From: Sutterellaceae bacterium
Lineage (GTDB): Bacteria > Pseudomonadota > Gammaproteobacteria > Burkholderiales > Burkholderiaceae_F
DNA: 16,582 bases
Reading direction: 5' to 3'
Assembly: GCA_030531135.1 (NCBI GenBank)
Contig: JAUNOJ010000013.1
Coordinates: 272 to 16,853 of the forward strand
The translations under genes and the position numbers were made by a program. Numbering within the stretch: the first letter of the stretch is position 1; every line of letters starts with the position of its first letter. Below the pieces are notes generated by a model. It had not been told where the DNA came from. It saw only the letters and a program-made list of their open reading frames with translations, and ran no database searches. Of the stretch, positions 2,388 through 16,002 are shown piece by piece.

Positions 2388-4976
2388 ATGTCTCAAGACA
2401 CCAAGTTATATAAAGTCGTCGTGCGCGTTCCCGATATGGACTGCCCGCACGAATCGGGCGAAATCACCGAGCTCTTTGAAAAAGATGCCCGTTTTGCCTC
2501 GATGAAGTTCGACCATCCGGCCCGTTTGGCCACCTTTGAAATCAACGCAACCAAAGACGATTGCGCCAAAATCCCCGAGGCCATCAAAACGCTCGGCATG
2601 GACTCCGAAGTCGTATCCATCGACGAAGTCGTTGTTGACACGTCCAAGTTCAAGACCGTGGAAGTGCACGTTCACGATATGTGCTGCCCGTCCGAGGGCG
2701 GTCAGATCGAGCGCGCCTTTGAAAAGAACGATCAGGTCAACAGCCTTCGCTTTGACTATGGGCTGCGCATCGCCAAGTTCGAAGTTGCCAAAGAGATGAC
2801 GGACTACTCCTGGATTTTAGCCACCATCGCCTCGCTCGGCATGGAAGCCGAAGTGCTTGAAGCCAAGAAGTTGTCGGATGTGACCATTACGATCGACAAC
2901 ATGAAAACGCCCCAAGACGTGGACGCCGTACTGGAAATCGTCGGCATCGACGCCAAGGTCGATCGCAATGCGCACACCATTGGCGTACGCATTTATCCGG
3001 ACGCCGTCTTCGGTCTTTTGGAAAAGTTGGAGGCCACCGGTTGGAAAGCCAACGTGAGCCGCGTGGGCGACAATTTAAAGAGCCCGGTCAAGGCAGACCT
3101 TCCGATCAAGCGCTTGGGCGGCGCATTTGTCTTTGCGGCCGCTGCCGAAGTTTTGGAATTGATGGGCAACATTCCCGAATGGGCCATCATCGTGTGCGCC
3201 TTGGCCGCCATTGTCTTGGCGGGCTTTGACACAGTTACCAAGGGCTTGAAGTGCTTGGTGCGCTTTATCTTCAATATGAACACCTTGATGGCCGTGGCCG
3301 TGATCGGTGCTTGCTGCTTGGGCGCATGGCCTGAAGCCGCCATGGTGATGGTGCTCTATGAAATCGGTGAGTCCATCGAAGACATGTGCATGATGCGCGC
3401 CAAAAACGCCATCCGCAATTTGTTGGATGTCACACCCGAGACGGTATTAGCCAGCGTCAACGGCGTTTGGAAGCGTATGTCGGCCGAAACCGTTCCGGCA
3501 GGCACGATCTATCGGATTGAACCCGGTGAACGCGCCGGTCTTGACGGCACCGTTGTGGAAGGTCACGGCGCAATGGACGAAAGCATGATGACGGGCGAAT
3601 CGCTGCCGAGCCCCAAAGAACCCGGCAGCCGCGTTTATGCCGGCGCTCTTGCCTTGGACAGCACCTTGACGATTCGTGCCACGGCAGCTGCCGCCGACTC
3701 CATGAGCGCTCGCATCATTCGCTCGGTGGAAGACGCCGAACAGAAAAAAGCCCCCTTGCAGCGCTTTGTCGATCGCTTTGCCGCACGCTACACCCCGACC
3801 GTGTTTGCCTTGGCAATTTTGACGGCTGTGGTGGGTCCCCTTGTGAGCGATCTGCCCTGGACCGAATGGATTTATCGCGCTTTGGTGCTCTTAGTAATCT
3901 CTTGCCCCTGCGCATTGGTGATTTCCACCCCTGTGACGATTGTCTCTGCTTTGAGCCTTGCCGCTCGCCGCGGTATCTTGGTTAAAGGCGGCGTGTTCTT
4001 GGAAGCCGGTCGTTTCTTAAAGCATGTTGCATTGGATAAGACGGGTACGGTCACGCGCGGCAAGCCCGAGTTTGACACTCAGATCACGACTGCGGGTAAC
4101 GATGCCGACAAGGGCTTTGTGTTGGGCGCAAGTTTGGCGAGCATGAGCTCTCACCCCATCAGTAAGGCCATCGGTGCCGAACTTGCCAAACGCAGCTTGA
4201 CCCCGAAGCTTGTGACCGACTTTAAGGCTCTGCCCGGTTACGGCACGCAAGGCAAGATCGATGGCGTTTTGTATCGCTTCACGAACTTGCGCTGGTTGGA
4301 AGAACACCATTTGGCCACCGAAGAAGTGAAACTTGCCTTTGCCAAGGCTTACGACGAAGGGAAATCCGCTGTGGCCGTCTCCGACATGTTTGGCGTGATT
4401 GCCGTCTTCATTGTGGCCGATACCTTAAAGCCCAACGCTAAGGAAGCCATTGACGCGATGAAGCGTGCCGATTTGACGCCGTGGCTTTTGACCGGTGACA
4501 ACACGCGTGCCGCCACCTCGATTGCCGCTCAGGTCGGTATCGACAACGTGAAGGCTGAACTCTTGCCCGATCAGAAGTTAAGCGAAATCGATCGTTTGGA
4601 CAACGTTGCCCCGACCGCCATGGCAGGCGACGGCATCAACGACGCACCGGCATTGTCTCGCGCTCGCATCGGCTTTGCCATGGGTATTAAGGGCAGCGAC
4701 TCTGCGATTGAAGCTGCAGACGTGGCCTTGATGGACGACAACATTGGCAAGATCGCTTGGTTTAAGCGCTTATCTGAACTCACCCACACGACCTTGATTC
4801 AAAACATCGTCTTTGCCTTGGGTGTGAAGTTTGGCTTTGCCTTGGCAGCCATTATGGGACATGCTTCGATGTGGGCGGCCGTGTTTGCCGACACCGGCGT
4901 GTGCTTGATCGTGGTGGCTTGGGGCCTGCGCTTGATGAAGGCCGGCGACAAGGTCGATGCCATGACGAATCGATAA
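2388..4976 (+). CDS. cadA: Zn/Cd/Pb-exporting P1B-type ATPase
   Basis: An 862-residue inner-membrane pump that exports Zn(II), Cd(II) or Pb(II) at the cost of ATP. Two N-terminal heavy-metal-associated domains carry CPxE variants, DCPHE (Cys19) and CCPSE (Cys99/100). A third, about 164-225, has lost its metal cysteines. Core motifs are TGES (402-405) in the actuator, the CPC motif in the transmembrane segment (Cys506/508), the phosphorylation site DKTGT (Asp550), the HP dipeptide (589-590), TGD (702-704) and GDGIND (747-752). Lys814 and Asp835 in the last two helices (GVKFG and ADTG) match the ZntA metal-site residues, which argues for divalent soft metals over Cu(I). I chose ATG 2388 with AGGTGA at 2375-2380. 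The in-frame ATG at 2352 overlaps the -10 box. Regulated by the divergent CadR-like protein. Confidence 0.95.
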   Translation: MSQDTKLYKVVVRVPDMDCPHESGEITELFEKDARFASMKFDHPARLATFEINATKDDCAKIPEAIKTLGMDSEVVSIDEVVVDTSKFKTVEVHVHDMCCPSEGGQIERAFEKNDQVNSLRFDYGLRIAKFEVAKEMTDYSWILATIASLGMEAEVLEAKKLSDVTITIDNMKTPQDVDAVLEIVGIDAKVDRNAHTIGVRIYPDAVFGLLEKLEATGWKANVSRVGDNLKSPVKADLPIKRLGGAFVFAAAAEVLELMGNIPEWAIIVCALAAIVLAGFDTVTKGLKCLVRFIFNMNTLMAVAVIGACCLGAWPEAAMVMVLYEIGESIEDMCMMRAKNAIRNLLDVTPETVLASVNGVWKRMSAETVPAGTIYRIEPGERAGLDGTVVEGHGAMDESMMTGESLPSPKEPGSRVYAGALALDSTLTIRATAAAADSMSARIIRSVEDAEQKKAPLQRFVDRFAARYTPTVFALAILTAVVGPLVSDLPWTEWIYRALVLLVISCPCALVISTPVTIVSALSLAARRGILVKGGVFLEAGRFLKHVALDKTGTVTRGKPEFDTQITTAGNDADKGFVLGASLASMSSHPISKAIGAELAKRSLTPKLVTDFKALPGYGTQGKIDGVLYRFTNLRWLEEHHLATEEVKLAFAKAYDEGKSAVAVSDMFGVIAVFIVADTLKPNAKEAIDAMKRADLTPWLLTGDNTRAATSIAAQVGIDNVKAELLPDQKLSEIDRLDNVAPTAMAGDGINDAPALSRARIGFAMGIKGSDSAIEAADVALMDDNIGKIAWFKRLSELTHTTLIQNIVFALGVKFGFALAAIMGHASMWAAVFADTGVCLIVVAWGLRLMKAGDKVDAMTNR

Positions 4977-5001
4977 ACGTCCGACTTGGTTTTCGAGAAC
5001 G

Positions 5002-5037
5002 GGGAGATGCCTTTTAAGGGCGTCTCCCTTTCTTTTT
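5002..5037 (+). terminator. Rho-independent terminator after the metal ATPase
   Basis: The stem GGGAGATGCC (5002-5011) pairs with GGCGTCTCCC (5019-5028), with one G-T wobble, a 7-nt loop and TTTCTTTTT immediately after. It closes the cadA transcript and insulates the downstream rloAB cassette. Confidence 0.88.
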
Positions 5038-5060
5038 ACGTTCAACTCCTTTTTTCTTTA

Positions 5061-5101
5061 TTTGAGAGATTTTTTCTCTTAAACAAGGGAATGCGTATAA
5101 T
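5061..5101 (+). promoter_or_regulatory. Promoter and dyad upstream of rloA
   Basis: A perfect TATAAT -10 box (5096-5101) lies 27 bp before the rloA start, but no good -35 box sits 16-18 bp upstream. The -35 region is instead occupied by the dyad TTTGAGAGA-ttttt-TCTCTTAAA (5061-5069 and 5075-5083, one mismatch). That is compatible with an activator or repressor site, or with an extra weak hairpin. The Shine-Dalgarno for rloA is AAAGGAG at 5115-5121. Confidence 0.55.
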
Positions 5102-5128
5102 AACCTGTATACTGAAAGGAGTTCATGT

Positions 5129-6460
5129 ATGCTGATTAACTACTCTGTAACAAACTGGCGATCTATCAAGAAAACTGTCGACTTTTCTATGATTGCAACG
5201 CGCGAAAAGCAACATGGGGAACGTCTATCCCATGTTAAAAAATTCAACCTTAAATTGTTGCCGACAGCTGCTATTTATGGTGGAAATGCGTCCGGCAAAA
5301 GCAATCTTGTAGAGTCGATCTCCTTTGCACAAAACTTCATCCTCTTCCTGAGAGCACCTGATGCCAGTACGGCCACGCGCCCTTATCGTTTGGATAACGA
5401 ATCCGAATCCTTGCCAACGAAGTTTGCCTTCTCGATTCTCATTGACGAGTTGATTTATGACTACTCGTTTGCGGTGAATCAATCTGAAGTCATTTCGGAA
5501 GAGCTTACCGTCATTAACAGCTCCTCATCGACTATTCTGTTCAGTCGCCAAGGACAAAATTTTGATTTATCTCCATCATTAACGACTGCTGATCAGGATA
5601 CTCAGTTTATCTCTTACATTTCCAAAGGAACTCTGAAAAATGTCTTGTTCTTAACGCAAGCTGCATATCAGGGAGTGAACAAACTGAAACCCGTATGGAA
5701 TTGGTTTCGTAATTGCTTACATGTCTTAAGTCCGGAAAGCCAATTTGCATCTCGACACCAACTCACTGCTGAAAATAAAATATTAGGTAGTGCCTGCTCG
5801 CATTATTTACAAGCCTTGGATACCGGCATTGATCATCTTGAAAGAAAAGAAGTAGATCTTTCCAATATTCTTGATAAGGACGATACACGCAAATTTGCAG
5901 AATTTCTCAAAGATGGTCAATCGATCACGTTACCGGGACGTCGTTCACGAGAGCGATACGTTATTGCGAAAGAAAATGGTGGAATCAAGGCTTACCGTCT
6001 ATTTGCAGCTCATAAAACGTCTTCGAATGAATTTAAGCTTTTTGAATTCGATGACGAATCAGACGGTACGATTCGCCTCATTGACATAATACCGGCTATT
6101 TATGACATAACTCAGAAAGAAAGTAAGTCAGTCTTCATTATTGATGAATTAGATCGCAGTCTGCACACGAATCTTACAAGAGCATTGATCAAATCTTTTT
6201 TGTACCATTGCGATACGAATAATCGTGCTCAACTCATCTTTACGACGCATGATGTACAGCTCATGGATCAAGATCTATTCCGTCGAGATGAATTGTGGAT
6301 AACAGAACGTCGTGTTGGAGAGTCTGATCTCTACTCTTTTGCCGAATATAAAGAAGTCCGAAAAGATAAACAATTACGCAAAACTTACATTCAAGGTCGT
6401 CTTGGCGGCGTTCCTTATATTCCACAAATCCCCAATGGTCGTATTTATGAAGAGATCTAG
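5129..6460 (+). CDS. rloA: RloA/AbiLi-like AAA ATPase of a defence module
   Basis: A 443-residue ABC/SMC-fold AAA ATPase of the group that accompanies RloB/AbiLii in phage abortive infection. The N-terminus (LINYSVTNWRSI) is typical of these overcoming-lysogenisation-like ATPases. Walker A is GGNASGKSN (51-59), the signature-like ESDGT is at 310-314, Walker B is VFIIDELD (335-342; Asp339, Glu340), and the H-loop TTHD has His374. The C-terminal tail RLGGVPYIP (424-432) resembles a conserved terminal motif of the group. Start ATG 5129 has AAAGGAG 7 nt upstream. The last 14 nt overlap rloB, so the two are co-translated. Base composition is noticeably AT-richer than the flanking cadA and autotransporter genes, suggesting acquisition by transfer. 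PARIS-like ATPases are a related alternative, but the partner fits RloB better. Confidence 0.88.
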   Translation: MLINYSVTNWRSIKKTVDFSMIATREKQHGERLSHVKKFNLKLLPTAAIYGGNASGKSNLVESISFAQNFILFLRAPDASTATRPYRLDNESESLPTKFAFSILIDELIYDYSFAVNQSEVISEELTVINSSSSTILFSRQGQNFDLSPSLTTADQDTQFISYISKGTLKNVLFLTQAAYQGVNKLKPVWNWFRNCLHVLSPESQFASRHQLTAENKILGSACSHYLQALDTGIDHLERKEVDLSNILDKDDTRKFAEFLKDGQSITLPGRRSRERYVIAKENGGIKAYRLFAAHKTSSNEFKLFEFDDESDGTIRLIDIIPAIYDITQKESKSVFIIDELDRSLHTNLTRALIKSFLYHCDTNNRAQLIFTTHDVQLMDQDLFRRDELWITERRVGESDLYSFAEYKEVRKDKQLRKTYIQGRLGGVPYIPQIPNGRIYEEI

Positions 6461-7061
6461 TTTTAAATCCCAAAAAAAATTAAGAACACCAAATCGCGAT
6501 CTTCCCAATAGACACAGAATAGTACTCATCACAGAAGGAAGTGTGACAGAACCGGATTATTTCAATCACCTCAATGCCTTAATGCGTAACACAGTGATTC
6601 TGGAATTTGTCGACCCTGCTGGCGCAAGTTCTGCGTCCGACCCTGCCTCTCTCTTAAAAAAAATAAATCAGTATCTGAAAACAGCGAGCTTAAAAGGTAC
6701 GGATGAAGCGTGGATCGTTTGTGATCGTGACCGTTGGTCAGAGGCTCAACTTGACGAAATCTACAAATGGGCACAACAGCCGAATCATGGCATGGCTTTA
6801 ACCAATCCCAAGTTCGAATATTGGCTTTTATTGCATTTCGAAAATGGCAATGGACTTAAAAGCATTCAAGATTGTGATCAACGCTTAGCGAAGCATTTAC
6901 CCAATTACAAAAAGAAAATTGATACTTCCAAATTTACTGAGCAGGCTATTCGCCAAGCCATCGCGCGAGCGGAGCAACGTCCAAAGACGACTGGTTCATG
7001 GCCTCAAAGTTTAGGGGAAACACAGGTTCACATTCTTGTTAAGAAAATATTGAAAGGCTGA
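6447..7061 (+). CDS. rloB: RloB/AbiLii-like Toprim-type effector
   Basis: A 204-residue protein of the RloB family, the partner of RloA-like ATPases in AbiL/RloAB defence. It is presumed to be a Toprim-related nuclease. Family landmarks appear in order: RIVLITEGSVTEPDYF (24-39; Glu30 and Glu35), VCDRD (91-95; Asp93 and Asp95), NPKFEYWLLLHF (120-131) and a C-terminal TQVHILV (192-198). The glutamate plus DxD arrangement is what Toprim catalysis needs. I chose ATG 6447, which gives the basic MKRSSFK start typical of the family. ATG 6435 (four more residues) is possible, and ORF extension to 6312 would only be frame-shadow of rloA. There is no separate Shine-Dalgarno, so translation is probably coupled to rloA. 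Like rloA, it is AT-rich. Confidence 0.88.
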   Translation: MKRSSFKSQKKLRTPNRDLPNRHRIVLITEGSVTEPDYFNHLNALMRNTVILEFVDPAGASSASDPASLLKKINQYLKTASLKGTDEAWIVCDRDRWSEAQLDEIYKWAQQPNHGMALTNPKFEYWLLLHFENGNGLKSIQDCDQRLAKHLPNYKKKIDTSKFTEQAIRQAIARAEQRPKTTGSWPQSLGETQVHILVKKILKG

Positions 7062-7079
7062 TTTGACTCCGACATTTGA

Positions 7080-7118
7080 CGGCTGGGAGGCGTTCCCTAT
7101 ATTCCTTTGCCACCGTAA
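7080..7118 (+). pseudogene. 3' remnant of a second RloA-like ATPase gene
   Basis: Reading from 7080, the codons give RLGGVPYIPLPP and then TAA. The first nine residues equal RloA residues 424-432, but several synonymous positions differ (for example CGG CTG GGA against CGT CTT GGC). A TGA lies directly in front (7077-7079), preceded by GAC ATT where RloA has TAC ATT. This looks like the surviving end of a diverged ATPase gene rather than a fresh duplication of rloA. Only about a dozen codons remain, so chance or a short conversion tract cannot be fully excluded. Confidence 0.6.
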
Positions 7119-7136
7119 TCGCTTGCTCAAAAATGC

Positions 7137-7170
7137 AAACGCCGCGCTTTTGTCACGCGGCGTTTTGTTT
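7137..7170. terminator. Bidirectional terminator between rloB and the autotransporter gene
   Basis: A perfect 10-bp stem, AAACGCCGCG (7137-7146) with CGCGGCGTTT (7156-7165), has a 9-nt loop. TGTTT follows on the plus strand and a T-rich run (TTTGCATTTTTG) follows on the minus strand. It ends both the rloAB transcript and the leftward autotransporter transcript. Confidence 0.88.
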
Positions 7171-7186
7171 GGATGGTTAAAGAACT

Positions 7187-9316
7187 TTAGAAGCTATACC
7201 GCACCCCGAAATTGATACGATAGTCCGTATCCACTTCTCCACCGTTTGAGGCTTCGACGTCGGCATACAAGTGCGTCTGATCCGTCACGTTAAAGTTGGC
7301 ACCGATACCGAACTCGTACCACGTACCGCCCAAGTCGGAGGACATTGCGCGAGCATTCGCACCATCGCTAAACGTGAAGTCGGCTTCACTCTTCCAGTCG
7401 TGCAACACGGAAGCACGCACGTAGGCGTTGCCGCGATTGTTCGGGCACTTCACACCCAAAGCAAACCCTGCGCGGCCGATCAATGCGTCGGCAGAGTCCT
7501 GTTCAACATAGACCTTGACGGCACTATCGGTTGCGTAGTTGACGCCCGAAACGTGACCCCACATCATTTCGACTTGCGGTTCGATATAGAACATGTCGGT
7601 CAAATCAAAACGCCAACCGGCTTCGGCGGACAAGCTCACGGCATTGGTGTGGTAGCTTGCTGACGACGTGTAGCTCGGCATAGCGATATCAAACGTATTC
7701 TTCATGCGGCCGATCTTGCCGGTCACATCCAAGAAGAATCCGTTATCCGCCACCCAAGAACCGTAACCTGTGAAGGCATACAAAGAGCTGTCGCCGCCAC
7801 CGTTGGCAAAGTCGTTGTCACCGTCCGTCCACGATGCGGCGCCGCCCAACCACACGCCGTCGGCCACTTGATGGTCATAGCCGAATTGGAAAGCCGTGTA
7901 GTTGTTCTTGATGGATTTGCTACCAAAGCGTGCCTGACCGGTATAGACACGAGCCCAGACGCCGTTATTCTGACCCTTGCTGTCGCGCAACTCTCCCAGG
8001 CGCTTATTCATGTCGTTGATTTCGTTGCGCCAGATGTGCAAACCCACCATGGACATTTCGGTGATGCCGTAGACGGTGTCACTACCATGGATTTTGATGT
8101 TTTCAAGCGTACCGTCTACTCCCGCTGTAGCGGTTGCACCGTCGAAGATACCGCTGGCTTTCTGTTCGAGCGAGTAGCCGGTCAGTTCTTTCTCAACATT
8201 GCCGTTCGTATCCTTTGTATTAAGAGCTACGATGCCCAGTAACTTAGACAGGTCTTCCTGAGCATTGCCCGTACCGTTGGCACCGTCGGCCACGACTTTA
8301 ATGTTCTCGGCCTTCGTCTGAAGATTATCCTCGACGCCGGTCAGGTAAACCTTATTTCCGCTGTCTACATCGGCAATATTGAAAGTCAAAGAATCGGCCG
8401 TAATGTAGATGTCATCAGGTTTCCAACTTGTGTCGCCGTCTTCTTTATAACCGCCAAAGTCCACCATGGCACCGGCACCCATATTGATATTGACATTGCC
8501 GGCAATGTTTGCACCATGTTGGACTCCATAGACACTAAGGCGTAAACTGCCGCCGTCTAAAACATCAACCTCGTTTAATTCGAAAGTCGATCTTTCTGTG
8601 TTTGAGCCGTTAGTCTGAAGGTTAAGAACCGAATCCTTTTCAACCTTAAGTTGATTGATCTTTATCGTTCCTGCCTTATTGGATTGAACGAGTCCTTTGC
8701 TACCAATGACTGTGACCTGCGACAATTCCAACGTGCCGGCGGCATCGAATTCAACACGAGCATCTTGCGCAGTTCCAGTTCGCTTCAGAGTAATCGGAGC
8801 ATCAATTATTAGGCCACCGGCTCCCACAACCAAACCAGTCTTTGCGCCTTGGGACTCAACAAGAATTGCATCAACTTCTTCAAGAGTCTTTTGATTGGTA
8901 ACTACCAACCCAGTTTCGTTTGTCGTTCCAACAATCGTAAGCAGTTTCGTTTGGATAATCGTATTCTTAAGTTCCACGTCGTATGTATTCTTGCCAGTGC
9001 CTCGATAAATGAATGCATGATCAGCTTGAATCGTGCCTTGGAAAACAGGTATCGGGCTATTCGTTGTCAGGATGTCTAATGTCTGGGTATGAATGGAGCC
9101 ATTCTCACCCATGGCAAACTTGCCACCCTCAAGCTTGATTAGCTGATTTTCAACTGTCCCGTTCACGGTCAAAGTCGTTGTGTTGTCCGATGCGACAACA
9201 TCTTCCTTATATGTGGTTTGTGCATCCACCACAACATCTTCGGCGTAAGCAAACCCCGTAGTCATCAACAAAGAGGCGGCCACGGCCGTCAAACTGAACA
9301 TATTTTTGGTATTCAT
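7187..9316 (-). CDS. Type Va autotransporter with C-terminal beta-barrel
   Basis: A 709-residue secreted surface protein. A signal peptide (residues 1-25, cleavage after AYA) is followed by a passenger of about 400 residues rich in beta-helix-like T/V/N/G strands (LTVNGTVE, LSQVTVIGS, INQLKVE). A linker helix (about 428-446, NEINDMNKRLGELRD) leads into a 12-strand barrel domain from about 452 (GVWARVYTG) to the terminal GVRYSF, whose last Phe is the BAM recognition residue. I chose ATG 9316, preceded by GGTGAT. The GTG at 9328 would overlap that site. No serine-protease triad or other enzymatic motif is visible, so adhesin or biofilm functions are likely. The gene stands alone between two defence modules and ends at a shared terminator. 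Confidence 0.92.
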   Translation of the reverse strand: MNTKNMFSLTAVAASLLMTTGFAYAEDVVVDAQTTYKEDVVASDNTTTLTVNGTVENQLIKLEGGKFAMGENGSIHTQTLDILTTNSPIPVFQGTIQADHAFIYRGTGKNTYDVELKNTIIQTKLLTIVGTTNETGLVVTNQKTLEEVDAILVESQGAKTGLVVGAGGLIIDAPITLKRTGTAQDARVEFDAAGTLELSQVTVIGSKGLVQSNKAGTIKINQLKVEKDSVLNLQTNGSNTERSTFELNEVDVLDGGSLRLSVYGVQHGANIAGNVNINMGAGAMVDFGGYKEDGDTSWKPDDIYITADSLTFNIADVDSGNKVYLTGVEDNLQTKAENIKVVADGANGTGNAQEDLSKLLGIVALNTKDTNGNVEKELTGYSLEQKASGIFDGATATAGVDGTLENIKIHGSDTVYGITEMSMVGLHIWRNEINDMNKRLGELRDSKGQNNGVWARVYTGQARFGSKSIKNNYTAFQFGYDHQVADGVWLGGAASWTDGDNDFANGGGDSSLYAFTGYGSWVADNGFFLDVTGKIGRMKNTFDIAMPSYTSSASYHTNAVSLSAEAGWRFDLTDMFYIEPQVEMMWGHVSGVNYATDSAVKVYVEQDSADALIGRAGFALGVKCPNNRGNAYVRASVLHDWKSEADFTFSDGANARAMSSDLGGTWYEFGIGANFNVTDQTHLYADVEASNGGEVDTDYRINFGVRYSF

Positions 9317-9422
9317 AACTATCACCACGAAACAACTTTAGAAAATGATGGTGTAAACTTCCGGATCGAAATAGTTGCACACTAAGATATACGTTTTCAT
9401 TTACCCCCGCAAGCACAAGGGG

Positions 9423-9449
9423 TTTATAGCCCCCCAAGTCCGCTGTCAA
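9423..9449 (-). promoter_or_regulatory. Candidate sigma-70 promoter of the autotransporter gene
   Basis: On the minus strand, TTGACA (9449-9444) is followed by TATAAA (9428-9423) with a 15-bp spacer. That is shorter than optimal, but both boxes are near consensus. The -10 box lies inside a GGGG/CCCC dyad (9419-9434) that could modulate melting. It would give an untranslated leader of about 100 nt. Confidence 0.45.
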
Positions 9450-9603
9450 CCTTTTCAAGATATCAATTTCATTCAACCATAGCACTAAGGGTTTACCCCG
9501 AGATATTTCTGTAACAACATCTCCAAGTAGCGCAATGCATACTCAAATTTAGGATGGCAACTCCAAAAAAATCCGACTCCTGTACAAGCGCGGGTACGGT
9601 GAC

Positions 9604-9636
9604 CATATTCAGATATGAAAATTTCAAATTTTTGAA
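9604..9636. repeat. Pair of AT-rich dyads upstream of the McrBC-like operon
   Basis: CATAT-TCAG-ATATG (9604-9617) and TTCAAA-TT-TTTGAA (9623-9636) lie next to each other with centres 19 bp apart, roughly two helical turns. This is the geometry of a paired operator, although AT-rich sequence makes short dyads common. Confidence 0.4.
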
Positions 9637-9778
9637 CAAATACCGGACAAGCTTGAACTCTTGACCGAGCATCGACTCAATTGCTCTCTAACTTCTTTGC
9701 CTGTTTTGACCGAAACCGCGAAAGTTTTTCTTACTCCACCCCCAAAATCCACGCGACAAATCGGCATCGTTGCTAAGA

Positions 9779-9809
9779 TTGACGCCGCTCGCAAATTTGG
9801 ATGCGTCAA
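9779..9809. repeat. Inverted repeat just before the McrB-like gene
   Basis: A perfect 7-bp inverted repeat TTGACGC (9779-9785) / GCGTCAA (9803-9809) with a 17-bp spacer ends 33 bp before the start codon. It might be an operator or a 5' UTR hairpin. A 7-bp repeat at an arbitrary spacing is weak evidence on its own. Confidence 0.35.
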
Positions 9810-9842
9810 ACGAACAAGCCCTCGGACTGAAGGAAAGAAAAA

Positions 9843-12800
9843 ATGGACGTCGCTCTGCTTACCGCCATCAAAAATTACTACACCGGCAAAAATCAAACGG
9901 ATTTTTTGAATCGTTGTTACGAACTGTTAAAAAGGTACGGCAGCTCCAAAGGCTTTCGTCAAAAGACCTGGTGGACAAGCGACTTTTGCAAAGGTCAATT
10001 GGCAAGTTTCTTCACGAACAATCAAATGGCTCTGCTCGGTGCGTTACCGAGTCCAAAATTGCCCGCCGGCGACTGGGTCAACGACGAGATGCGAGCCTAT
10101 TGCCACGAACACTTCGACGCTCCTGCTCTCGAAGATAAAGAGCTCTTCTTTACCTGGTTTACGGAAAACATTTGTAAACCCGAAGTGGCGCAATACTTCT
10201 TGGACAACTGGGACGAGCACCCCGACATCATTCATTTAAAGCTCTTTTGGTCGCACTTTAACGATCACAACTTCGAGGAATTTTGCGACGTCTTCTGGCG
10301 CTCGATGTTGCCGCTCGAAGCCAAGCTTCAGAACCCCGAGCACATCAAACAATATTTCCCGGTGCCCAAGTCGCTCACGGGCGGCCAAGATGCTGTCGAC
10401 ACCGAAGTCGTTCAAGAACAAGCCGTCGAAGTTGAAAGTCAAAGTTCCTCTGCCTCCGAAAACTCGACCGACGACGATATGAAATCTCCTGCGGTGACCG
10501 ATTTGCCCGAAGAGATTGTCGACATGGACATGCGCTTCCGAGAAACCCGCGATCCGGATTTATGTCGTCAACTTGCCCAAGCACTGACCGGTATCGACTA
10601 CTTGCATGCGGCCGCCGACTATTACTTTGAATTGGTCTTGATGTGCAAATCCCAAGACAAGGCAGAGTCCGCGTACTACGACCGCCTGTTGGCTACGGCA
10701 CGCGCCGAAGGTCCGGATTGCGATATGGAACGTCTTGTTCAGGGATTCCAAAAAGCATTTCCTCAGACCAAGAAGCTTCAGACGCTCGACTTCGATCTTG
10801 CCGGTGCCTACGAGATCTTTAAGGACAAGAGTCGATGGCTCCCCATTTTCTCTGCCAAGCGCGAAGACTTCGGCCACGGTTGGGCCGATCAGGAAAAATA
10901 CTTCAAGACCGAATGCAACAAGGTCATGGCGGGCAACAAGCTTTATGCCCTCGAGTACATTCACGGTGCAGTCGAGCTTTTGCCCGATAGCTTCACGCTG
11001 TTGCGCAACCTGGCTCAAACGCAATCGGCGCTCAAACTCGCCATGTCCGCGAGCATGAGCTATGAATTGGTCTCCAGAATCGACCCCAGCCGCAAAAGTG
11101 CCGCCGAGGCAAAATGCCGCTCCGTGTCCTGCCTGATCGATGCCAAGCTCTATGATCAAGCTGCCATCGAGTTATCGGGCTTGAAAAAATTCGGCTCCGT
11201 CGATCGAGATGAAATCAGTCGGCTGAGCAAATACATAGAGCTGGGGCAAAAAGAGCTTGATCGACAACTTGCCCAAGCCGAAGTCGAAGAGCCCAAGGAC
11301 GAAGTACCGGCATCGCAAACCCAAAGCGATGTTGTCGCGCCTATCCAATCGGCCACCCCGATGCAACCCGTTTCCACCGAGTCTCACCCGACTTGGCCCG
11401 AAGGCATGGACGACGATGTGCCGCCCATGCGGTTGCCCACGCGCTTAATCGGGTATGTAAAACGCCTGTCTGGCTTCATCAATTTCTGGCCACAGTATTA
11501 TCAAGTCGACGGCAATTGGTACCTGCTAACCGATGACCAAGCTAAATTGCGGTTTGAAACCAAAGGTGCACTGAATCTACGCTTTAATAAGCACGAAGAG
11601 CCAAGCGCACTTAAAGACAGCTACCCCTTTGTCGTGGTTCTTCAGAGTCCAAGTCAATTGCGTCCGACTGGAAATCCCAATTACACCGTTTGTATCGATC
11701 CCAAGATCGGCAAAGAAGTGCAACCTTTGAGTAACGCCGGTTACGTCGTTGCCTACCCGTGCCAGAATCACATCGATCTGACCTCGGGCACCGATGTCAC
11801 GGTCACCTTGGGCGCCACCCAAGTCGATACCGGGGAAGATGTTTTAAGCAACCTCGACGTGGTCTTGGCTGTCGAAGGCGGCTTTGCCGGACCTTTCCGC
11901 ATGCTTGCCACCGCCAACGGACAACTCTATATTCCGGCCGTCAAGGTGGAAGCGTTAACTGCGGTCAATTTCTGGAAACAGAATAACGGCAAGGGTGTTT
12001 TGCCTGCAGCGACTTCGGGAAAAAACAACGAAACGGTGCACTACCAAATCGCACTCGTGCACGACAAAAAGCTCTTTACCAAAGGCACGATCGATTTGTT
12101 AAGCCCCGAAGAGGTGTTGCGCATTACGCTCAACAAAACCTCGGGCTTTACCACAATTGCCGATGTCAAAGAGTTTGTGAGAACAAGCGATTCGCTGTTA
12201 ATCAATAACGAAGCGCGTCGCGCCCGCGTCTTGGCGTTGCTCGACAAAATGCCCGAACTCGAAAACTTCTCGCAGTCCGTGCAAGATGCCGCCATTGAAG
12301 CTGCCGTGCGCGCCGTTGCCAAAGAAGCCGCAAGCGACGCTAAGCCTTTGACGGACGCTTTCGTCAAGGCCGTTGCCCAGTCCAAAAACCTCAAAGGTTT
12401 GGAAGCGCAACTCAAACAAAACGAAGACGAAATCCGCGCCGACTATCAGGCGCGCATTCAAAGCGCCAAGACCGAGTTTGAAAAAGCTTCGCGCGACATT
12501 GAAAAAGAACTCAAGGCTCGCCAAGCCGATTTGACCAAGGTCGAGACCGAAATCGAAAAGAAAGAAGCTTTCTGGAAGTCGGAGTTCGAAAGTTTTGTCA
12601 AGGCCGCCAAGGATCAAATCACCGAGCATCGCTTGTCGCCCTACTTTGACGAATTGACCGGTGTTGCAGCCGCAACCGGCACCGTAACTCGCCCGTGCGC
12701 CGAAGGCGAAATCGATTATGGGGCTCGCGCTCAGGCAATCGTCAAATCCGTACCCAAGCACCGTTTGGCGCCGGCAGAACTCAGAAACCATATCATCACG

Positions 12801-13817
12801 GCTTTCCAGGCTCGACGCGGCTATACGCACGACGAAGTCGTCAATTTGTGCGTGAGTTTAGCGAACAACTTCCTCACCATCTTTGCGGGCGACCCCGGTA
12901 TCGGCAAGACCACGGCCTGCCATGTCTTGGGCGACGTTCTGGGTTTATCCGACCTAAGCGCCTCTTTGGCAGGCTCTACCCTGTGGGACGCCGATGCCGC
13001 CAAGCGCTTCTTGCAGGTGCCGGTGGAACGCGGTTGGACCAGTAAACGAGACTTCTTGGGGTACTTCAACCCCTTGACGCAAAAGTTCAGTTCGCCCGAC
13101 AAGCGCCGCTACGAAGCCTTCCGCCTGCTTGACAAGGAGGCGTCTTTAGGCAAAGACAAGGTATTGCCCTTTGTGTTCCTCTTGGACGAAGCCAACTTGA
13201 GTTCGATGGAATACTACTGGGCCGACTTCATGGGCTTTTGCGGCAACGACGACGCGGCCAAGCGAGAAATCGTTTTGGGCGACAACGAAGTCATTGCGAT
13301 TCCCGATCACTTGCGCTTTTTGGCAACGATCAACGTCGACGATACGACCGAAACCTTATCGCCGCGCCTACTTGACCGCGCCTGGATCATTCGCCTGCCC
13401 GAACCCAAGTTTGATACGGTCACGCGCGAAGGTAACGAAAAGAAAGCCGTGCTTTGGAGCGACTTTCAAGCCGCTTTCGGCTGCCCGCAAGGCAAGACCC
13501 TTGCCAAGGTTGTCGAGCTCGATCCGATTTACGCCGAATTCAAGGCCGCAGGCGTCAACGTTTCCATGCGCAGCCAACGCGCCATCGCGAAGTTTGTCGC
13601 GGCAGGCGAATCGCTTTTTGACGGACGCCGTACCACGGCCGTGGACTATGCCATCGCGCAAAAGTTGCTACCCATGATTCGCGCAAGCGGCGCCCTTTTC
13701 CATCAACGTCTGGAAAAGCTCAAAGGTGTCTGCGCCCAATATCCGACCACTTGCGCCATCATCGACTCGATTATGACGCGCGGGGAAAACAACCTTAACT
13801 TCTATCAGTTCTTCTAA
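9843..13817 (+). CDS. Giant McrB-like AAA+/GTPase with coiled coil (type IV restriction motor)
   Basis: A 1324-residue, probably cytosolic motor subunit of a non-canonical McrBC system. Its C-terminal domain (about 985-1324) has Walker A GDPGIGKT (1016-1023), Walker B FLLDEAN (Asp1115, Glu1116) and the McrB-type NxxD signature in ATINVDD (Asn1164, Asp1167), followed by LSPRLLDRA with candidate arginine fingers. Before it is a charged coiled coil (about 846-928). Going N-terminal, there is a beta-rich region (about 531-770) whose GYVKRLSGFINFW opening recalls an OB/cold-shock fold, a Ser/Pro/Glu linker (about 480-530), an all-helical TPR-like region (about 225-480), an acidic Ser-rich linker (180-222) and a Trp/Phe-rich helical domain (1-175). 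Classical McrB is about 460 residues. The start has AAGGA 8 nt upstream. The nuclease partner follows after 3 nt. The N-terminal modules are unrecognised. Confidence 0.85.
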   Translation: MDVALLTAIKNYYTGKNQTDFLNRCYELLKRYGSSKGFRQKTWWTSDFCKGQLASFFTNNQMALLGALPSPKLPAGDWVNDEMRAYCHEHFDAPALEDKELFFTWFTENICKPEVAQYFLDNWDEHPDIIHLKLFWSHFNDHNFEEFCDVFWRSMLPLEAKLQNPEHIKQYFPVPKSLTGGQDAVDTEVVQEQAVEVESQSSSASENSTDDDMKSPAVTDLPEEIVDMDMRFRETRDPDLCRQLAQALTGIDYLHAAADYYFELVLMCKSQDKAESAYYDRLLATARAEGPDCDMERLVQGFQKAFPQTKKLQTLDFDLAGAYEIFKDKSRWLPIFSAKREDFGHGWADQEKYFKTECNKVMAGNKLYALEYIHGAVELLPDSFTLLRNLAQTQSALKLAMSASMSYELVSRIDPSRKSAAEAKCRSVSCLIDAKLYDQAAIELSGLKKFGSVDRDEISRLSKYIELGQKELDRQLAQAEVEEPKDEVPASQTQSDVVAPIQSATPMQPVSTESHPTWPEGMDDDVPPMRLPTRLIGYVKRLSGFINFWPQYYQVDGNWYLLTDDQAKLRFETKGALNLRFNKHEEPSALKDSYPFVVVLQSPSQLRPTGNPNYTVCIDPKIGKEVQPLSNAGYVVAYPCQNHIDLTSGTDVTVTLGATQVDTGEDVLSNLDVVLAVEGGFAGPFRMLATANGQLYIPAVKVEALTAVNFWKQNNGKGVLPAATSGKNNETVHYQIALVHDKKLFTKGTIDLLSPEEVLRITLNKTSGFTTIADVKEFVRTSDSLLINNEARRARVLALLDKMPELENFSQSVQDAAIEAAVRAVAKEAASDAKPLTDAFVKAVAQSKNLKGLEAQLKQNEDEIRADYQARIQSAKTEFEKASRDIEKELKARQADLTKVETEIEKKEAFWKSEFESFVKAAKDQITEHRLSPYFDELTGVAAATGTVTRPCAEGEIDYGARAQAIVKSVPKHRLAPAELRNHIITAFQARRGYTHDEVVNLCVSLANNFLTIFAGDPGIGKTTACHVLGDVLGLSDLSASLAGSTLWDADAAKRFLQVPVERGWTSKRDFLGYFNPLTQKFSSPDKRRYEAFRLLDKEASLGKDKVLPFVFLLDEANLSSMEYYWADFMGFCGNDDAAKREIVLGDNEVIAIPDHLRFLATINVDDTTETLSPRLLDRAWIIRLPEPKFDTVTREGNEKKAVLWSDFQAAFGCPQGKTLAKVVELDPIYAEFKAAGVNVSMRSQRAIAKFVAAGESLFDGRRTTAVDYAIAQKLLPMIRASGALFHQRLEKLKGVCAQYPTTCAIIDSIMTRGENNLNFYQFF

Positions 13818-13820
13818 GAG

Positions 13821-15692
13821 ATGACGGGACTGATAGGACAATTGACGCTCACGACCTCAAAGGGAGTTTCCTTCCCTTTGAGCGTTTGCGGCTACCCGCC
13901 GACCGAAGACCTTGAGACGATTTTAAAGCGCAAGGTTAGCCCAAGCGCACGCTTAAAACTTGCCTTTACCTTTGAGGCAAAGGACGGCTACGCCAAATCG
14001 CTCGGCCAAGGCGACATCACCGTCAAGGTTTATGCCGGCAAAGAGAAGTTGTGCGAAACGATGCCGGAGTGCACTGCCGGCGACGAGAGCTTTTCTTTTA
14101 CCGTCAAAACCAAGGCCGCAACGCTTGTCGACGTGGTGGGACCGGTAGCTTTAAAGGTGGTGATCTCAAACGCCTTTGACGTCACGGAAACGCTTTTCAC
14201 ACAAAGCATCTTTGTCGGATTTGAAAATTCCGGCCACGGTTTGCGTTTGAAAGACATGCTCTGGTTTATCTATGACCGAGCCCATCTTCTGATGCACGCA
14301 GCCGGGCCCAACGCCATTCGCAAAGATTCGGGGGCTCAAGACCGAAAACCGGATACGGTTTCCAAACGCGAGACCGGCGACTTCGTACTGACAGCCGTCA
14401 CTGCGCGTGAGAGTCAACGCAACCTCAAGGATCAAATTGCACTCATTGCCAAAGTGATTCAAACGTTCGGGCAACTGAGAAACTACTTTGAGAGAAACGC
14501 GCGCTTTCGGTTGCAACACCGGCATCGCTTAACGGCCTTTACGCGCGTGCAGGCCGTCACGCACCGCACGTTGGAGTTTATTGCCAACCATCCGCAGTAC
14601 TTGGTGCCCACGCACGAAGAAACCGGGATTCGGTTCGGTAATCGCAACTACGTGCCAGACGTCACCACGGACGAAAGCCTGCACAAGAGCTACAAGATTT
14701 ACGAAAACCAAAGCTTGGTCAACTTCCTCGTGACGGTTTGGCAAACGTGTCGCAACCTCTCGCAAAAGGTCGTGGCGCACCCCGACTCGATCTATAGTCA
14801 GACGATTTTGGCCGACTTGAAAGATCGAGACGTCTTTGCGTCGCAATTGGAAGGGTTGGTCGAAGTGTATTGCCGTCTCTTTGGGATTGACGAGAGAACG
14901 GCGCTCACAACATTACCCGAACCCACCTCGATTTTTTGCTCCTCGGCACACTACCGCTCGGTCTACGAACTCATGCGCGAGTGGTTCGATTGCAAGCGCG
15001 TCACGCCCGAAGAAGAGTCGTATGTGGAAAGCGTCTCGAACTCCTCTCGCTTGTACGAGCACTACGTCTTGGCGCAACTGGTGAGCGTTCTCGAACCTCA
15101 CTTGACGGACAAACGTCGCGTTGTCTACCCGGGCGTCCGAGATAACCGTTATGAAACGCAAACGTGCAATGTCTTTACGTTTGCTTGTGAAGACAAGCGC
15201 ATCACCCTTTATTACGAACCCGCGATAGCAGCGGGCCGCCTTGAGAACAACGACGTGGGGCTTGTTCGTACCGTAACGCTTGATTACGCCAACGACGGCA
15301 CGCCGTTACATACGGAGAGCGAACAGTACTGGACGCCGGACTATGTCATCAAAATTGAAGAGAAGGGGCAAACGCGCTTTTGGATTGCCGACGCCAAATA
15401 TTCCGTTTGGACCACGGCAGTCAAAGAGTACGCCCAGCAGGTGTTTTTCAACTACTTGCTGGCCACGTCGCCCGCAGATCCCAAAGATTCGGTCGCCGGG
15501 CTCATCCTCTTTTGCGGCAAAGACAATGTCAACGCCAAAGAGCGCGCATTGGCCGCTCCTTACAACTTACGCAATCTCGACAACCCCGCACACGCATCGG
15601 CGCGCGGCAATCGGTTGCAGGTTTTGACGCTTGCGGCAGGCGATATCGGCAAAGACAAAACTGCCCTGGAAAATTGGCTCAGCATGCTTTAG
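13821..15692 (+). CDS. DUF2357/McrC-like PD-(D/E)xK nuclease
   Basis: A 623-residue endonuclease subunit partnered with the McrB-like motor. An N-terminal beta-rich part (about 1-135) is followed by a helical DUF2357-type region with the characteristic YENQSLVNFLV (294-304). The C-terminal catalytic domain carries Glu413 (LYEHYVLAQL), Asp507 (WTPDYVI) and Asp524-x-Lys526 (IADAKY), the full PD-(D/E)xK set, so the nuclease looks intact. Proteins of this type are annotated as predicted virus-defence components (COG1700, DUF2357/DUF524) and act as McrC equivalents, cleaving when their GTPase partner translocates or is activated. ATG 13821 is 3 nt after the upstream stop with no good Shine-Dalgarno, implying translational coupling. 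The substrate may be modified DNA or RNA; the sequence does not decide. Confidence 0.85.
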   Translation: MTGLIGQLTLTTSKGVSFPLSVCGYPPTEDLETILKRKVSPSARLKLAFTFEAKDGYAKSLGQGDITVKVYAGKEKLCETMPECTAGDESFSFTVKTKAATLVDVVGPVALKVVISNAFDVTETLFTQSIFVGFENSGHGLRLKDMLWFIYDRAHLLMHAAGPNAIRKDSGAQDRKPDTVSKRETGDFVLTAVTARESQRNLKDQIALIAKVIQTFGQLRNYFERNARFRLQHRHRLTAFTRVQAVTHRTLEFIANHPQYLVPTHEETGIRFGNRNYVPDVTTDESLHKSYKIYENQSLVNFLVTVWQTCRNLSQKVVAHPDSIYSQTILADLKDRDVFASQLEGLVEVYCRLFGIDERTALTTLPEPTSIFCSSAHYRSVYELMREWFDCKRVTPEEESYVESVSNSSRLYEHYVLAQLVSVLEPHLTDKRRVVYPGVRDNRYETQTCNVFTFACEDKRITLYYEPAIAAGRLENNDVGLVRTVTLDYANDGTPLHTESEQYWTPDYVIKIEEKGQTRFWIADAKYSVWTTAVKEYAQQVFFNYLLATSPADPKDSVAGLILFCGKDNVNAKERALAAPYNLRNLDNPAHASARGNRLQVLTLAAGDIGKDKTALENWLSML

Positions 15693-15700
15693 CACCCGGA

Positions 15701-15737
15701 AAGCAAAACGGCCTCAACCATAGCTCGGTTGAAGCCG
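15701..15737 (-). terminator. Terminator, better suited to the leftward nrdG transcript
   Basis: CGGCCTCAACC (15709-15719) and GGTTGAAGCCG (15727-15737) form an 11-bp stem with a 7-nt loop. On the plus strand it has a C-A mismatch and only CTTTA behind it. On the minus strand the mismatch becomes a G-U pair and TTTTGCTTT follows. It should therefore stop leftward transcripts from nrdG better than the restriction operon. Confidence 0.65.
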
Positions 15738-15756
15738 CTTTATAAAGGAGGATTAG

Positions 15757-16002
15757 ATGCTCGAACCATCTAAGTCCGCCATCACGGTACGTGTTCTTCG
15801 CGTCCTTGTCAAGGTTCTCCTTGTCATCGCGTTGCTCCTCGTGCCCATGAGCGCGTATTCATTCCGACCATCGGAACCCCGGGTGGGCAAGCACGCCTGG
15901 GGGTTACGTGTTTTTTCTGCGCACTTCCCATTTTACCCGCGCCGAAGTAAAAATGTCGGAAAAAGTCCACTTAATTCATCGAGCACCGCCTGCCCCGGAT
16001 AA
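15757..16002 (+). CDS. Small signal-peptide or membrane ORF, possibly truncated
   Basis: An 81-residue ORF preceded by a near-perfect Shine-Dalgarno, AAGGAGG (15745-15751), 5 nt before ATG 15757. Residues 12-36 (VRVLRVLVKV then LLVIALLLVP) form a basic-flanked hydrophobic stretch ending AYS, like a signal peptide or a single membrane anchor. The rest is Arg/Pro-rich, resembles nothing I know, and its last 70 nt overlap nrdG in antisense. The strong ribosome site and credible export signal suggest a real gene start. The unconvincing C-terminus suggests the original gene was cut by a rearrangement near 15860. It could equally be a genuine small membrane peptide. Confidence 0.4.
   Translation: MLEPSKSAITVRVLRVLVKVLLVIALLLVPMSAYSFRPSEPRVGKHAWGLRVFSAHFPFYPRRSKNVGKSPLNSSSTACPG

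Follow-up and report, generated by a model that had tools for sequence, protein, structure and literature searches.

A two-gene McrBC-like locus of the NxD branch with a distinctive motor front end in a Sutterellaceae bacterium

The described systems closest in layout to the locus presented here are the CoCoNuTs, whose published account (PMC11090510; Bell et al. 2024, eLife) is cited below from those portions of its text that were available. According to these portions, no McrB GTPase with the NxD motif had been characterised when the paper appeared, and NxD groups other than CoCoNuTs exist, so that the motif is not sufficient for membership. Type I CoCoNuT motors carry a cold-shock-type oligonucleotide/oligosaccharide-binding (OB) fold at the N-terminus, and the McrC proteins of Types I-B and I-C carry an immunoglobulin-like (Ig-like) domain resembling RhoGDI, which also occurs outside CoCoNuTs. 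Here we discuss a pair of genes from a Sutterellaceae bacterium (GCA_030531135.1, contig JAUNOJ010000013.1, positions 272 to 16,853), encoding an McrB-like motor and an McrC-like protein; the whole stretch of 16,582 nucleotides is referred to as the window. We consider it likely that the pair is an McrBC-type (type IV-like) restriction system that consists of two genes and belongs to the NxD branch, in which an exchangeable or fast-evolving sensor is mounted on a conserved motor and nuclease. The McrBC kind itself is known; what sets the locus apart from the closest known systems is the distinctive helical and tetratricopeptide repeat (TPR)-like front end of the motor.

An earlier sequence-only reading had proposed two adjoining McrBC-like genes with a motor nearly three times the classical length, and the open reading frame (ORF) list agrees, giving 1324 and 623 codons at the coordinates proposed, on the plus strand and with a 3-base gap (E. 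coli McrB has 459 amino acids). The pairing itself was borne out as well. In hhalign comparisons, the AAA+ profile built for the family reached a probability of 95% against E. coli McrB (E 2e-8), 99.95% against five NxD reference motors (E 2.3e-38) and 5% against the MoxR ATPase RavA. On this contrast, drawn with one representative each, the AAA+ domain is of McrB rather than MoxR type, and a MoxR-like identity was dropped. Across genomes, McrC-like genes lie directly downstream of the motor in 46 of 48 loci from named genomes, the remaining two being cases in which the contig ends there. The wide-sense marks of McrBC are therefore present: an McrB-type AAA+ motor and an adjacent McrC with DUF2357 and PD-(D/E)xK regions. 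Searches of solved structures by sequence added little, as the motor query gave no matches, its profile three weak P-loop or chance matches, and the McrC-like protein nothing convincing.

The nuclease appears intact, as had been claimed, with its catalytic residues invariant in all 23 aligned sequences. In the query protein, Pfam PDDEXK_7 scores just below its cut-off (E 2.4e-4, 21.7 versus 22.1 bits) and DUF2357 further below (E 0.0041, 16.8 versus 23.3 bits); the two models match 10 and 20 of the 23 aligned members, respectively, at E <= 0.1, which upholds the proposed DUF2357-type region at family level. No McrC model of PADLOC matched the protein. Its structural model, on the other hand, matches solved McrC (Table 1), and the N-terminal beta-sandwich matches RhoGDI, with Wzt sugar-binding domains tying at Z 8.5. 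E. coli K-12 McrBC is alike in combining a Walker A/B AAA+ motor with a DUF2357/PD-(D/E)xK McrC, whereas it lacks the extra Ig-like McrC domain, has a much shorter motor and differs in its signature motif.

This last difference is of key importance. Walker A and the DEAN Walker B are present as first read, but the NxxD signature assigned at the same time is wrong; the letters N-V-D-D (N1164 to D1167) invite such a misreading. Among the best 120 of 220 homologues (query included) the signature was found in 118; its third position is aspartate in all 118, and its fourth is variable (D in 41; H, Q, F or L in 77). Of 185 proteins in a broader collection, many of them near-copies, 175 could be scored, and 174 of these have NxD, the sole exception being E. 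coli McrB itself (NTAD); in the other 10 the search patterns missed a motif. Two of these unscored motors, L057 and L061 from Erysipelotrichaceae, carry Q at the conserved N position of NxD, with DDAN as Walker B, and are possibly altered or dead, judging by these residues. A canonical NxxD system of the E. coli type was accordingly rejected for our locus. By its sequence the pair reads as a CoCoNuT-like, NxD-branch McrBC, since the signature indicates the branch in which the CoCoNuTs are found.

The second main observation concerns the front end of the motor, which diverges far faster than the rest. Between the query and its closest relative, P0002, the motors are 95% identical and the N-terminal regions only 46%, the largest gap among 144 pairs with motors 85-99.5% identical (median gap 15 points; at least 25 points in 32 pairs). 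Divided by part, the helical domain shows 53% identity, the TPR region 44% and the beta module 50%, as against 94% for the coiled coil, 93-97% for the AAA+ domain and 92% for the first 25 residues. The pair P0005/P0010 shows a like step in identity where the beta module begins, and the pair P0012/P0013 shows none. This pattern fits replacement or diversifying evolution of a putative recognition part, and the contrast between 46% and 95% makes the N-terminus the likely target sensor. The earlier proposal that recognition lies in the motor's N-terminal 770 residues hence gains indirect support, and the window's ORF list holds no separate specificity gene, again as proposed.

What this front end resembles can be described in part. 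The AlphaFold2 (AF2) model of the N-terminus is TPR-like and resembles no named DNA-binding fold, and Pfam found no known DNA-binding domain there at E <= 1, nor any N-terminal domain above cut-off in seven relatives with long N-termini. In profile searches, the helical and TPR-like part of ~480 residues is present in 14-15 related proteins, and matches to the profile of residues 1-180 are confined to 14 aligned close relatives; the beta-module profile has matches at E <= 1 in 107 of the 171 other proteins searched. A single-sequence search with residues 1-485 returned only the query and P0002, a weak absence given that such a search needs shared exact words. The extension is not mentioned in the available portions of PMC11090510, in whose main text "TPR" occurs once, in the abbreviation list; we do not claim that a TPR-bearing McrB is unpublished. 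An even longer front occurs in a Sutterella wadsworthensis motor (L036:5856-10853; 1666 amino acids), where ~660 residues without a Pfam domain at E <= 0.05 precede the stretch covered by the family profile.

McrB N-terminal regions are known to carry DNA specificity. The pair could therefore be an ordinary McrBC dependent on modified DNA, its N-terminus being a large, unrecognised DNA-binding region, and the intact nuclease and McrBC fold would suit this. The NxD signature, the TPR-like model and the Pfam result speak against it, although the beta module could be a DNA-binding fold, and on balance we find this explanation rather unlikely.

More weight must be given to the possibility that the pair is a true CoCoNuT, of Type I-C or a sister subtype, that would sense and attack RNA or the translation machinery and end in abortive infection. 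The comparison with CoCoNuTs, first drawn by the sequence-only reading, proved apt: besides the NxD motif and the RhoGDI-like McrC domain, as in Types I-B and I-C (PMC11090510), a coiled coil does precede the AAA+ domain. It is short (~80 residues); a home-made test for heptad-like periodicity, which is not a coiled-coil predictor, gave p = 0.001 for two of the 19 overlapping segments scored (853-908 and 867-922). The individual types can be sorted by architecture. Type I-A was set aside since its helical insert between Walker B and NxD is lacking (49 residues from DEAN to N, versus 54 in E. coli McrB), and Type I-B since there is no separate CnuA coiled-coil gene, the upstream gene being an autotransporter on the other strand. 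Types II and III were rejected because the ORF list of the window holds no UPF1-like helicase CnuH, the genome beyond it not having been searched. Lacking insert, CnuA and helicase partner, the locus finds its nearest published architecture in Type I-C, a likeness to the published description rather than to I-C sequences. It shares with Type I-C the two-gene layout, the insert-free NxD motor with coiled coil and the RhoGDI-resembling McrC domain, but differs, as far as the available portions of the description go, in its ~480 additional N-terminal residues and in having an intact PD-(D/E)xK nuclease and no RNase gene.

Several observations count against true membership. The cold-shock-type OB fold was not shown: residues 530-606 have a pattern suggestive by eye, but their profile comparison with the host cold-shock protein scored 10.4, within the range of 50 shuffles (mean 8.5, highest 16.0), which gives this candidate no support. 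No HEPN or other RNase gene stands beside the pair, and the Ig-like domain is, as said, not exclusive to CoCoNuTs. A tree of 79 AAA+ rows, in which Types I-A and I-C have no reference, groups the query with the five other full-length rows retained (support 90; 100 with P0015), among motors of Sutterellaceae and other gut bacteria. The query family lies beside plasmid systems of Citrobacter, Klebsiella and Acinetobacter (support 93) and apart (support 92) from I-B-like Priestia, II/III-like Enterobacter and Rhizobium, III-C-like Pseudanabaena, and Synechocystis, whose type is unclear; these type labels were inferred from gene neighbours. As the outgroup branches are long and saturated (length 10), the root of the tree and any placement relative to the CoCoNuT clade are tentative. 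Taken together, we see a true CoCoNuT as a serious possibility, though with somewhat less than an even chance.

The plasmid systems (L066 from Citrobacter, L067 from Klebsiella and L068 from Acinetobacter) deserve a closer comparison. They too are NxD pairs of motor and McrC in which only 46-52 residues separate Walker B from NxD, so that a large insert is lacking, and their AAA+ regions are 30-32% identical to that of the query. Their motors, in contrast, are annotated at 628-853 amino acids and have no TPR-like extension. The PADLOC model PDC-M26A matches the query motor (E 1.1e-22) over its coiled coil and AAA+ region but does not reach its N-terminal 770 residues. It also matches all six other NxD-type motors tried, and since it recognises such motors generally, PDC-M26 is probably NxD McrBC; a literature search for "PDC-M26" found no paper.

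Table 1. Features of the locus, with positions counted from the first letter of the window.
Feature	Position	Strand	Basis
McrB-like AAA+ motor, 1324 amino acids	9843..13817	+	ORF; homologues; hhalign to E. coli McrB
Helical domain, motor residues 1-180	9843..10382	+	AF2 model; profile n1
TPR-like alpha solenoid, motor residues 223-481	10509..11285	+	AF2 model
Beta-rich module common to wider family, motor residues 528-756	11424..12110	+	AF2 model; profile n3
Short coiled coil, motor residues 845-930	12375..12632	+	Heptad-like periodicity; identity to P0002 rises to 94%
AAA+ motor domain, residues 985-1324	12795..13814	+	Alignment, tree, hhalign
Walker A GDPGIGKT, motor residues 1016-1023	12888..12911	+	
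Walker B DEAN, motor residues 1115-1118	13185..13196	+	
NxD signature N-V-D, from N1164	13332..13340	+	
McrC-like protein, 623 amino acids	13821..15692	+	ORF; Foldseek best match McrC 6hz4_M, E 3.1e-5
Ig-like beta-sandwich resembling RhoGDI, McrC-like residues 1-135	13821..14225	+	
DUF2357 region, McrC-like residues 193-334	14397..14822	+	Pfam, under cut-off
PD-(D/E)xK nuclease core, McrC-like residues 411-533 (E413, D507, D524-x-K526)	15051..15419	+	Pfam PDDEXK_7, just under cut-off; invariant residues
Variable chromosomal site between metal P-type ATPase and radical-SAM genes	4976-15933		

The presence of the system among related genomes is patchy, with matches at E <= 0.001, some of them weak, in 10 of 101 (7 of the 75 of good quality). 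It occupies a variable site, where, in the window, the McrBC pair is accompanied by an AbiL/RloAB-like pair and an autotransporter. Both flanking genes share a contig in three of the nine further genomes that represent the genus: the first has only 53 bases between them, in the second they enclose other genes, one matching PADLOC PDC-S01 (E 1.3e-29), and in the third genes that by eye resemble an IS21-type element. Neither a tRNA nor an Rfam match was found at the insertion site, and the repeats found there look like chance. The AbiL/RloAB-like pair (5129-7061) consists of an AAA_21 ATPase and RloB, matching PADLOC AbiLi (E 6.7e-84) and AbiLii (E 2.5e-24); six of the ten genomes available for the genus, its own included, have relatives of the ATPase (E <= 0.001). 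Between the two defence-like pairs, the autotransporter (7187-9328, opposite strand; beta domain E 6e-43) has no near match on plasmids. The remaining neighbours in the window are ordinary metabolic genes.

A different picture emerges in another lineage. Eleven of the 48 loci (L032, L034, L037, L040, L041, L043, L044, L045, L046, L048 and L050; mostly titled Ruminococcus) share a conserved neighbourhood, with rhomboid and YceG-domain genes after the McrBC-like pair and, in 8 of them, an HtrA-like protease ahead of it. One of them, L032, is titled Alistipes senegalensis, although its motor equals that of Ruminococcus P0112 in length and nearly so in score; it is probably a misassigned contig of a metagenome-assembled genome. 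In two further loci, L055 and L065, motor or McrC genes are split into several reading frames. TPR-like repeats usually bind peptides, and together with the rhomboid, YceG and HtrA-like neighbours this would suit a machine for stress response or quality control, built on an McrBC-like motor and nuclease, that binds host proteins through its TPR-like part and is not defence in practice. In the window, on the contrary, the neighbours are of the kinds listed above; the patchy presence, the variable site and the fast N-terminal divergence, which suits conflict better than housekeeping, likewise argue against such a role, and we regard it as very unlikely.

Critically speaking, some points do weigh against a restriction system with a fast-evolving sensor. 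The rhomboid/YceG/HtrA-like neighbourhood could indicate that the relatives in that lineage act in stress or at the envelope, and rapid N-terminal divergence could reflect relaxed constraint instead of selection on recognition. The GC content at third codon positions of the McrBC genes (0.62-0.68) is like that of the flanking chromosomal genes (0.61-0.70), so they do not appear recently imported from a distant source; the AbiL-like pair stands at 0.38. A search of 50,697 phage records gave one weak partial match, and viral contigs gave none. Activity, GTP use and phage protection of the pair are, moreover, predictions from genes and models.

If the pair is a restriction system as we propose, its working can be sketched by analogy. 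The motor would assemble into an McrB-like ring, to which the McrC-like protein would bind, stimulating nucleotide hydrolysis. Recognition of the invader would fall to the variable N-terminus with its helical domain, TPR-like repeats and beta module, and binding there, relayed to the ring via the coiled coil, would license cutting by the PD-(D/E)xK domain. We infer this whole sequence of ring assembly, stimulated hydrolysis, front-end sensing and cutting. Given an intact nuclease and no adjoining RNase gene, the substrate is most likely DNA; nothing in the analysis speaks directly for an RNA target. The RNA hypothesis for CoCoNuTs builds on domains of cold-shock and YTH-like type, and for the former the comparison made with this motor did not rise above shuffles. 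Going one step further, we tentatively raise an idea that we hold to be unlikely, namely a receptor-type McrBC, in which a replaceable helical/TPR-like sensor on the NxD motor would perceive an invader protein or ribonucleoprotein instead of a modified base and fire the McrC-like nuclease through the coiled coil.

For the family, the finding means that a two-gene NxD version with an intact nuclease is at hand in a branch without a characterised GTPase at the time of PMC11090510, as far as its available text tells. The query and P0002 systems form a natural experiment, with motor and nuclease in common and the first ~845 residues different, and swapping parts between them would directly test the recognition site and the target. 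Should the receptor-type idea be true, the system would resemble immune receptors in pairing a diversifying sensor with a motor and nuclease that hardly change.

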